Shown here in pieces: positions 10,988-39,741 of a stretch of DNA of 40,624 bases; the stretch's first letter is position 1, and each line of letters starts with the position of its first letter. Both the position numbers and the translations under genes were made by a program. The stretch is from an uncultured Oscillospiraceae bacterium (GTDB lineage Bacteria > Bacillota > Clostridia > Oscillospirales > Oscillospiraceae): NCBI GenBank assembly GCA_904420435.1, contig CAJFVK010000005.1, forward strand, positions 1 to 40,624, read 5' to 3'. The notes beneath the pieces were generated by a model. It was given only the letters and a program-made list of their open reading frames with translations, was not told where the DNA came from and made no database searches.

Positions 10988-11063
10988 GGGAGCATAGCTC
11001 AGCTGGGAGAGCACTTGCCTTACAAGCAAGGGGTCACAGGTTCGAGCCCTGTTGTTCCCACCA
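10988..11063 (+). tRNA. tRNA-Val(TAC)
   Basis: Cloverleaf GGGAGCA...TGTTCCCACCA; loop CTTACAA. Confidence 0.97.
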
Positions 11064-11071
11064 TGAAACAT

Positions 11072-11148
11072 GGCCCAGTAGTTCAGTTGGTTAGAACGCT
11101 AGCCTGTCACGCTAGAGGTCGACGGTTCGAGCCCGTTCTGGGTCGCCA
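11072..11148 (+). tRNA. tRNA-Asp(GTC)
   Basis: GGCCCAG...CTGGGTCGCCA; loop CTGTCAC. Confidence 0.97.
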
Positions 11149-11188
11149 ACAATGAGCCATGAGGAATCCCGCCTCATGGCTCATATAT

Positions 11189-11264
<76 letters not shown>

Positions 11265-11292
11265 CACAGTCTGATCCAAGGCTGTGTCATAC

Positions 11293-11368
11293 GCGGGCGT
11301 AGCTCATCTGGTAGAGCGCCACCTTGCCAAGGTGGAGGTAGCGAGTTCGAGCCTCGTCGCCCGCTCCA
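11293..11368 (+). tRNA. tRNA-Gly(GCC)
   Basis: GCGGGCG...CGCCCGCTCCA; loop CTTGCCAA. Confidence 0.97.
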
Positions 11369-11380
11369 TTTTGTGCAAAG

Positions 11381-11398
11381 AAGCAGAAATGCTTTTTT
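11381..11398 (+). terminator. Short GNRA-type hairpin + T-run after tRNA-Gly
   Basis: AAGCA-GAAA-TGCTT followed by TTTT. Confidence 0.55.
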
Positions 11399-11449
11399 AT
11401 ATAGGAAAAGGCCGGCCCTTGGCCGCTGCCCGCTCCGCCTGCTTGATTC

Positions 11450-11470
11450 AGAGCAAAAAGTGCTCTTTTC
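11450..11470 (+). terminator. Second small hairpin + T-run
   Basis: AGAGCA-AAAAG-TGCTCT-TTTC. Confidence 0.45.
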
Positions 11471-11601
11471 CATATTGTGACGCGCTGGATCCCGCCGGCC
11501 GCCAGAAGGAAGCTCAGCTGCATGGAAACTGCATAGTCCATGTGGCCTTTTTCAAAAGCGCTGCTATTTTCGCGAAGGACTTCATAGAATATCATAGCGA
11601 T

Positions 11602-11676
11602 GGCGACATAGCCAAGTGGTAAGGCATGGGTCTGCAAAACCCTGATTCCCCGGTTCGAATCCGGGTGTCGCCTCCA
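11602..11676 (+). tRNA. tRNA-Cys(GCA)
   Basis: GGCGACA...TGTCGCCTCCA; loop CTGCAAA. Confidence 0.97.
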
Positions 11677-27721: not shown

Positions 27722-27788
27722 ATAAAAAGGGGCCGCTGCCAATGGATTTCAGCAGCGGCCCAAGCGGGTGGGATATTGGAAAGCTTCC
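27722..27788 (-). ncRNA. Candidate small RNA (promoter + intrinsic terminator, no ORF)
   Basis: Minus-strand promoter at 27795-27823 and terminator GGGCCGCTGC-N12-GCAGCGGCCC-CTTTTTAT (27722-27761, transcribed leftward); no minus-strand gene to terminate. Confidence 0.55.
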
Positions 27789-27794
27789 ACTAGT

Positions 27795-27823
27795 ATAATA
27801 GCAAACTCGTCCGCCCTTGTAAA
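27795..27823 (-). promoter_or_regulatory. Minus-strand sigma-A-like promoter
   Basis: TTTACA (27823-27818), 17-nt spacer, TATTAT (27800-27795). Confidence 0.7.
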
Positions 27824-27826
27824 GAG

Positions 27827-27860
27827 GAGCCTTTGTCGAGGGCGGGGAGCTTTTGTCGAA
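27827..27860. promoter_or_regulatory. Two tandem Spo0A-box-like direct repeats
   Basis: GAGCCTTTGTCGA (27827-27839) and GAGCTTTTGTCGA (27847-27859), 20-bp period; cores TTTGTCGAG and TTTGTCGAA. Confidence 0.6.
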
Positions 27861-27924
27861 AACGGTCAGATGGGTCTCAAATGTGAATGAATTGTATATA
27901 TTTTATGAAAAGGAAAAGTGGCCC

Positions 27925-27953
27925 TGTACAAATGGTTGTACACATGATACAAT
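27925..27953 (+). promoter_or_regulatory. hpf promoter with overlapping dyad
   Basis: TGTACA (-35), 17-nt spacer, TACAAT (-10); TGTACAA-ATGG-TTGTACA perfect dyad at 27925-27942. Confidence 0.75.
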
Positions 27954-27993: not shown

Positions 27994-28536
27994 ATGAAGT
28001 TTACGTTTACATGTAAAAAGATCAGCCTCAACGACTCCATCAAAGCCTATGCTGAGAAGAAGATCAGCAAGCTGGATCGTTATTTTCAGGAGGAAGCTAC
28101 CGCATTTGTTACCTTTGCCGTGGAGAAGGATCACCGCTGCGTCGTGGAGGTGACCATCCGCGGAGGCAATACACTGTTCCGGGCACAGGAGGAATCCAGA
28201 GATGGGGATATGCGGGGCGCCATTGACGCGGCCTGCACCACCATCAACCGCCAGATCCGCAAGAACAAGACCCGCCTGGCCAAACGGCTGCGGCAGGACG
28301 CCTTTGTCACCGACTTGCCGGTGGAGTTCGACGTCAGTGAGGAGAAGGAGTTCGACATTGTCCGCACCAAGCACATCGCCGTCAAGCCCATGAGCAGTGA
28401 GGAGGCCATCATGCAGATGAACCTGCTGGACCACGACTTCTTCGTTTTCCGGAACATGGAGGACGTGATTTCCATTGTCTACCGGCGGAAGAACGGCGGC
28501 TACGGCCTCATTGAAACCGACGGGCTGGACGAGTAA
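27994..28536 (+). CDS. hpf: Long-form ribosome hibernation promoting factor
   Basis: AYAEKKISKLDRYF, N-terminal S30AE-like fold and C-terminal KPMSSEEAIMQMNLLDHDFFVFRN dimerisation domain. Confidence 0.96.
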   Translation: MKFTFTCKKISLNDSIKAYAEKKISKLDRYFQEEATAFVTFAVEKDHRCVVEVTIRGGNTLFRAQEESRDGDMRGAIDAACTTINRQIRKNKTRLAKRLRQDAFVTDLPVEFDVSEEKEFDIVRTKHIAVKPMSSEEAIMQMNLLDHDFFVFRNMEDVISIVYRRKNGGYGLIETDGLDE

Positions 28537-38202: not shown

Positions 38203-38243
38203 GAAAAAGCTCGTCGCAAGCGATATGCCGCTTGCGACGAGCT
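38203..38243 (-). terminator. tRNA-Ser terminator
   Basis: 15-bp perfect stem AGCTCGTCGCAAGCG/CGCTTGCGACGAGCT (38208-38243) + U-run on minus strand. Confidence 0.92.
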
Positions 38244-38334
38244 GGCGGAGGTGAAGAGATTTGAACTCTTGCGCCGGCGGAGCCGACCTACCGGATTTCG
38301 AATCCGGACCCTTCAGCCGCTTGGGTACACCTCC
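38243..38334 (-). tRNA. tRNA-Ser(CGA)
   Basis: GGAGGTG...CACCTCCGCCA, long variable arm (GGCTCCGCCGGCGC area), anticodon loop TTCGAAA. Confidence 0.95.
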
Positions 38335-39213: not shown

Positions 39214-39288
39214 GCGGGTATAGCACAATGGCTAGGGCACCAGCCTTCCAAGCTGGGGATGCGAGTTCGATTCTCGTTACCCGCTCCA
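39214..39288 (+). tRNA. tRNA-Gly(TCC)
   Basis: GCGGGTA...TACCCGCTCCA; loop CTTCCAA. Confidence 0.97.
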
Positions 39289-39291
39289 TAC

Positions 39292-39368
<77 letters not shown>

Positions 39369-39401
39369 TATCTTCTTTCGTATACGACTAAGATGCGATA
39401 T

Positions 39402-39479
39402 GGTGGGTATAGCTCAGTTGGTTAGAGCACCGGATTGTGGATCCGGGGGTCGTGGGTTCGAGTCCCATTACCCACCCCA
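39402..39479 (+). tRNA. tRNA-His(GTG)
   Basis: G-GTGGGTA...TACCCACCCCA; loop TTGTGGA. Confidence 0.96.
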
Positions 39480-39521
39480 GAAGAAGAGGGATTGGGAGAA
39501 AATCCCAATCCCTTCTTCTTA
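39480..39521 (+). other. Long hairpin between tRNA-His and tRNA-Gln
   Basis: AAGAAGAGGGATTGGGA-GAAAA-TCCCAATCCCTTCTTCTT with one bulge. Confidence 0.65.
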
Positions 39522-39549
39522 TATTACGCCAGACTGGTCCATCGAATCT

Positions 39550-39624
39550 TGGGGTGTAGCCAAGCGGTAAGGCACGGGACTTTGACTCCCGCATTCGTTG
39601 GTTCGAGTCCAACCATCCCAGCCA
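39550..39624 (+). tRNA. tRNA-Gln(TTG)
   Basis: TGGGGTG...CATCCCAGCCA; loop CTTTGAC. Confidence 0.97.
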
Positions 39625-39632
39625 GAGCCAGG

Positions 39633-39660
39633 CAGCCCGAAGCGGGATCGGTTTGGGCTG
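39633..39660. repeat. Partial second copy of the tRNA-Ser-adjacent hairpin motif
   Basis: CAGCCCGAAGCGGGATCGGTTTGGGCTG vs AGCCCAGCGAAGCGGGTTCGGTTTGG at 38130-38155. Confidence 0.5.
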
Positions 39661-39665
39661 CATAT

Positions 39666-39741
39666 GACCCGTTAGCTCAGTCGGCAGAGCAACTGCCTTT
39701 TAAGCAGTGGGTCCGGGGTTCGAATCCCCGACGGGTCACCA
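39666..39741 (+). tRNA. tRNA-Lys(TTT)
   Basis: GACCCGT...ACGGGTCACCA; loop CTTTTAA. Confidence 0.97.

Follow-up and report, generated by a model that had tools for sequence, protein, structure and literature searches.

The Oscillospiraceae are abundant spore formers of the gut, and to our knowledge the control of their sporulation is almost unstudied, with little experimental sporulation work in the family. In other organisms spoIIAA and spo0A are regulated by Spo0A. At Spo0A-activated promoters, such as Bacillus spoIIA, spoIIG, spoIIE and spo0A Ps and C. difficile spoIIAA, TGNCGAA-type boxes lie upstream of the -35 element. The published 0A core, TGTCGAA, is also recognised by C. difficile Spo0A, which binds spo0A and spoIIAA DNA (PMC3485338). 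At the activated spoIIG and spo0A Ps, Spo0A boxes are located upstream of the promoter; at the repressed abrB and Pv, they are located downstream of it (PMC12090719). Sporulation-linked small RNAs (sRNAs) are already known as such, SurA, SurC, CsfG and Bvs196 from Bacillus (PMC9147052) and SpoX and SpoY from C. difficile (PMC10267692), the latter two being short sRNAs of the Spo0A network that act on spo0A mRNA. The sRNAs RoxS and FsrA have C-rich seeds (PMC8464778), which in RoxS/RsaE and FsrA are unpaired and aimed at ribosome-binding regions.

The locus described here, within a window of 40,624 nucleotides (the whole stretch of DNA analysed), combines candidate 0A boxes with a predicted sRNA gene on the minus strand. 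Two 13-nt direct repeats, GAGCCTTTGTCGA at 27827-27839 and GAGCTTTTGTCGA at 27847-27859 on the plus strand, differ by one mismatch and have a period of exactly 20 bp, as the original prediction had it, which aligns both boxes on a single helical face. The candidate distal box (27847-27860, minus strand) contains TTTTGTCGAA on the plus strand at 27851-27860, a perfect 0A core, and reads TTCGACAAAAGC on the sRNA strand. The candidate proximal box (27827-27840, minus strand) reads TTTGTCGAG on the plus strand and CTCGACAAAGGCTC on the sRNA strand and has a single mismatch to the TGNCGAA-type consensus, at its end; the predicted core scores of 9/9 and 8/9 are thereby borne out. Adjoining the boxes is a sigma-A-type minus-strand promoter, TTTACA-N17-TATTAT (27823-27795), which scores 10/12 with a TG before the -10. 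The TTTAC of its -35 element (27818-27823) is invariant in a nine-genome alignment, in which the conserved block also reaches past the 0A core to an AGCTCCT adjoining the -35; the -10 element, TATTAT (27795-27800), was assigned by promoter consensus, with a 17-bp spacer. Because this promoter is followed by a terminator stem (27761-27730), the proposed start near 27788 holds, and with it the box positions of about -44 to -52 and -63 to -72, of which -51/-50 and -71/-70 are conserved. Start sites throughout were inferred by promoter consensus.

The predicted sRNA (27788 to 27722, minus strand) is about 67 nt long. It consists of a 5' hairpin, GGAA-GCU-UUCC (27778-27788), an unpaired C-rich linker and likely seed, AAUAUCCCACCCGC (27764-27777), and an intrinsic terminator stem-loop, GGGCCGCUGCUG...CAGCGGCCC (27730-27761), followed by a U-tract. 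Its folding energy lies at z = -3.98 relative to shuffled sequences and it scores 89.7 bits against the covariance model built for the family. Homologues were folded individually: the hairpin is predicted in 142/143 and positions 13-23 are unpaired in all 143. Thus the gene has its own promoter, a terminator and a conserved sequence, the properties of an intrinsically terminated intergenic sRNA, the transcript itself being predicted.

By DNA comparison the sRNA block extends to congeners and one further genus, and the covariance model has matches in 26 of 301 family genomes, spanning 8 of 106 genera. Of these 26 genomes, 25 have the same first 23 nt and the remaining one departs by a single change, an invariance measured on the model matches and so independent of exact-match searching. 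A scan of GTDB representative genomes with an exact 22-mer returned at least 119 loci, titled Oscillibacter, Dysosmobacter and other Oscillospiraceae. Pooling these with the 26 model matches, which partly overlap, gave 145 loci and a non-redundant set of 121; these loci are related, so that counts across the 121 are not independent events, and the genome drafts are incomplete. A class-wide scan of 288 genomes for an 18-nt core, allowing one mismatch, gave two extra matches without a terminator, and an order-wide scan with the RNA model gave three weak new matches without the arrangement of box, promoter and terminator. All were judged to be chance, which leaves no credible member outside the bacterial family in these two scans under strict search filters; the sRNA family therefore seems, by its sequence distribution, confined to one bacterial family.

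Within the window, tRNAs were the only matches to reach Rfam gathering scores, with no other family found, including the RNAs known beside hpf/raiA. These tRNAs comprise two five-gene clusters, at 10988-11676 (Val-Asp-Phe-Gly-Cys) and 39214-39741 (Gly-Arg-His-Gln-Lys), and a lone tRNA-Ser at 38243-38334 on the minus strand. The Bacillus sRNA ncr1241 (RF02451) gave a weak full-length match with a common block, GCUUUC.A.UAU.CC.CC, and a terminator; it scores 21.8 bits in the window and up to 29.1 in relatives, the gathering score being 60, so that kinship with ncr1241 is an unproven lead from sequence resemblance. STAXI and other sub-threshold Rfam matches were judged to be chance. A search of open-licence papers found none on this sRNA, which is a new family.

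Within a single genome, the case for the boxes is suggestive only. In the window, TTTTGTCGAA with up to one mismatch occurs twice against 0.6 expected, which is equalled by 16% of shuffles and so mildly unusual, and the broader pattern TTTTGNCGAA is no commoner in this genome than its reversed control (28 vs 33). Tandem boxes are not diagnostic on their own either, since the 20-bp tandem pattern gave 23 matches in 12 genomes against 16-17 in reversed controls, 6 of the 23 being sRNA promoters by their coordinates. Exact copies of TTTTGTCGAA number only six in the 2.42-Mb assembly. One is at this sRNA promoter, and three others precede spo0A, an ftsE-like gene and a gapA-like gene; a fifth lies where one reading frame ends, shortly ahead of a frame for a small secreted protein, and the sixth is inside a P-type ATPase-like gene. 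The copy about 120 bp upstream of the ftsE-like ABC gene (L166 around 1501, G000:C82:11383) marks a candidate further Spo0A target, and the copy at the glyceraldehyde-3-phosphate dehydrogenase-like gene (L169 around 1501, G000:C137:3607) lies about 125 bp upstream of it.

Comparison across relatives turns this weak evidence into a strong case. In the 140-nt regions upstream of the 121 non-redundant sRNA loci there are 154 occurrences of CGNCAAA (read as TTTGNCG on the opposite strand), compared to a mean of 4.5 (maximum 12) in shuffled sequences and 12 in the opposite orientation, and the motif is present in 103 of the loci. The occurrences pile up at two positions, 85 at -51/-50 and 49 at -71/-70. 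The footprinting across relatives that the original prediction had proposed thus finds the repeats conserved, and their fixed distance to the sRNA start upholds their assignment to the minus-strand promoter. The third core base is free (A 66, G 61, C 20, T 7), matching the degenerate position of the 0A consensus TGNCGAA. With looser matching, the proximal box is found in 85 of the 121 loci, the distal in 52 and both in 46; 14 promoters instead place a box at about -40, the spoIIAA position, and 16 have no box by pattern. A separate observation concerns one subgroup (L031, L043, L056, L058, L097, L113, L120 and L124) in which the TTTACA -35 and the -51 box have been lost and TTCGAC or CGACAAA stands at about -40, a spoIIAA-like layout that has the look of a switch in promoter architecture.

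The identity of the regulator was approached through Spo0A itself and its accepted targets. The genome encodes one Spo0A (Spo0A_C at 3.1e-46), as anticipated, and its recognition helix, SRVERAIRHAIEVAW, is the same as in Spo0A DNA-binding-domain entries including 1lq1, of the B. subtilis type. Spo0A is encoded in all 26 genomes with the sRNA, yet this co-occurrence is uninformative since 265 of the 301 family genomes have Spo0A with or without the sRNA. More telling are the boxes at other promoters. Upstream of spo0A in this genome are GCGACAAAA and TTTTGTCGAAAA, and upstream of spoIIAA are two copies of TTCGACG. Across 25 spoIIAA promoters from sRNA-bearing genomes, TTCGNC occurs 23 times against 3.2 in shuffles, in 19 of the 25 loci; the typical box, TTTCGACAAAAA / TTCGACAAAAA, sits at about -40 and is oriented to transcription as the sRNA promoter boxes are. 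These spoIIAA boxes serve as an independent positive control and, together with the conservation of the repeats, they support the earlier reading of the repeats as Spo0A boxes. The locus thus shows a core match, a fixed distance in relatives, the recognition helix and the same box at accepted Spo0A targets, all marks of the 0A-box regulon, with Spo0A binding and Spo0A-dependent expression here predicted.

We consider it likely that the repeats act as operators (0A boxes) for phosphorylated Spo0A in the promoter of a trans-acting sRNA that Spo0A~P activates and that probably pairs through its CCCACCC linker. At the onset of sporulation, rising Spo0A~P would occupy both boxes just upstream of the -35 and increase transcription by sigma-A RNA polymerase. 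The RNA so made would present a protective hairpin first, then the exposed, unpaired C-rich AAUAUCCCACCC, and the terminator last, and would most likely act in trans, pairing with mRNAs at G-rich ribosome-binding regions and reducing translation of these mRNAs as the cell turns to sporulation. Computation shows the repeats, the promoter and terminator, the conservation of sRNA and boxes, the matching box at spo0A and spoIIAA, and a Spo0A in the genome; synthesis of the RNA, binding and activation by Spo0A, and action through pairing are inferred. The layout departs from that of Spo0A-activated protein-gene promoters in that an sRNA is driven and, in most species, two boxes phased by 20 bp stand beside an intact -35. 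Like B. subtilis SurA and other sporulation-controlled sRNAs, this RNA would be expected before asymmetric division, a likeness of kind. SpoX and SpoY act on spo0A mRNA; here, in contrast, the sRNA is taken to act downstream of Spo0A, and its linker showed no pairing with spo0A. RoxS/RsaE and FsrA differ in having regulators of their own (ResD/Rex and Fur) and another sequence.

Translation control by pairing is our working model since the unpaired C-rich linker resembles the seeds of RoxS and FsrA (PMC8464778). Limited pattern searches found no recurrent mRNA target. The pattern GGGTGGGAT-N-ATG gave about 45 matches in 14 genomes against 2 for the reversed pattern; codon usage biases this control, and most of the sites lay away from gene starts and were unshared. 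Pairing of the linker with the 5' regions of hpf, spo0A and spoIIAA was no better than with shuffled sequence. A tentative alternative, which touches this last step only, is that Spo0A controls the sRNA but the RNA binds a protein through its invariant 23-nt 5' part; the hairpin stem and loop are themselves invariant, which leaves room for a protein partner, and the searches that returned no shared target point the same way, against the seed-like linker.

Whether Spo0A would activate or repress the sRNA is a separate question, and box placement by itself does not separate the two. Spo0A is known to repress some promoters, and this promoter, at 10/12 and TG-extended, does not obviously need an activator, so the RNA might belong to vegetative growth and be shut off as sporulation begins. 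We consider this unlikely. The boxes lie upstream of the -35 and clear of the start site, a position that fits activation, whereas the repressed abrB and Pv promoters have theirs downstream (PMC12090719), and the subset of sRNA promoters with a box at about -40 follows the spoIIAA pattern.

Activation by Spo0A~P, our preferred reading, also has to be weighed against control by some other regulator with a TTTGNCG-like direct-repeat site. The known 0A boxes of abrB are overlapping pairs of about 10 bp, unlike the 20-bp tandem seen here, and the conserved block, with its AGCTCCT beside the -35, is larger than the 0A core. In these genomes the same box, with the same orientation, recurs at spoIIAA and close to spo0A, which makes such a regulator very improbable.

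By Pfam, the sRNA gene is flanked on one side by divIC, yabQ and yabP, the latter two as originally predicted, and on the other by hpf, which encodes a long-form hibernation promoting factor (27994-28536, plus strand; PF02482, PF16321); the spoVB-like neighbour is a polysaccharide/flippase-family protein by Pfam. The hpf gene is divergent, with its start about 135 bp away, an arrangement common to 91 of the 121 non-redundant loci (110 of the 145 pooled loci, among the matches listed, within 500 bp). In nine non-redundant loci, hpf is instead codirectional and upstream of the sRNA, so that its promoter must lie elsewhere, yet the boxes remain at the sRNA promoter in 9/9, and they are kept in 12 of 16 loci without a detected hpf. 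Conversely, two congeners (G004 and G006) retain hpf and its promoter core, and the region upstream of their hpf lacks the sRNA as well as the two boxes; for G006 the covariance model has no match genome-wide, and for G004 the absence concerns the hpf upstream region. With box orientation and spacing also fixed relative to the sRNA start, the suggestion that the boxes serve hpf on the plus strand, or both genes, is disfavoured and is the least likely of all the readings, and we do not judge hpf to be a box target.

The hpf upstream region has features of its own. A perfect 7-4-7 inverted repeat, TGTACAA-ATGG-TTGTACA (27925-27942, plus strand), overlaps the predicted hpf promoter (TGTACA-N17-TACAAT); it is complete in one relative (L002) and partial in others. 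Also upstream of hpf, GTGAATGAATTGTATAT (27883-27899, plus strand) is kept in a number of congeners, among them the two without the sRNA, and may be an hpf regulatory site.

Thus, Spo0A-dependent activation of the sRNA is the reading we favour. Its broader form, in which this undescribed Oscillibacter-type sRNA family is a direct target of Spo0A~P and uses its invariant 23-nt 5' region to control a whole set of mRNAs (or to titrate a protein) as a post-transcriptional arm of sporulation entry, stands for us at an even balance. The comparison yields a lineage-specific 0A box, TTCGNCAAAA, which can be used to predict the Spo0A regulon. A very short RNA whose 5' end does not vary, apparently tied to Spo0A by conserved sites, offers a testable way into post-transcriptional sporulation control in the Oscillospiraceae and, if the proposal is true, would add a post-transcriptional layer to sporulation entry in gut Oscillibacter-type bacteria.
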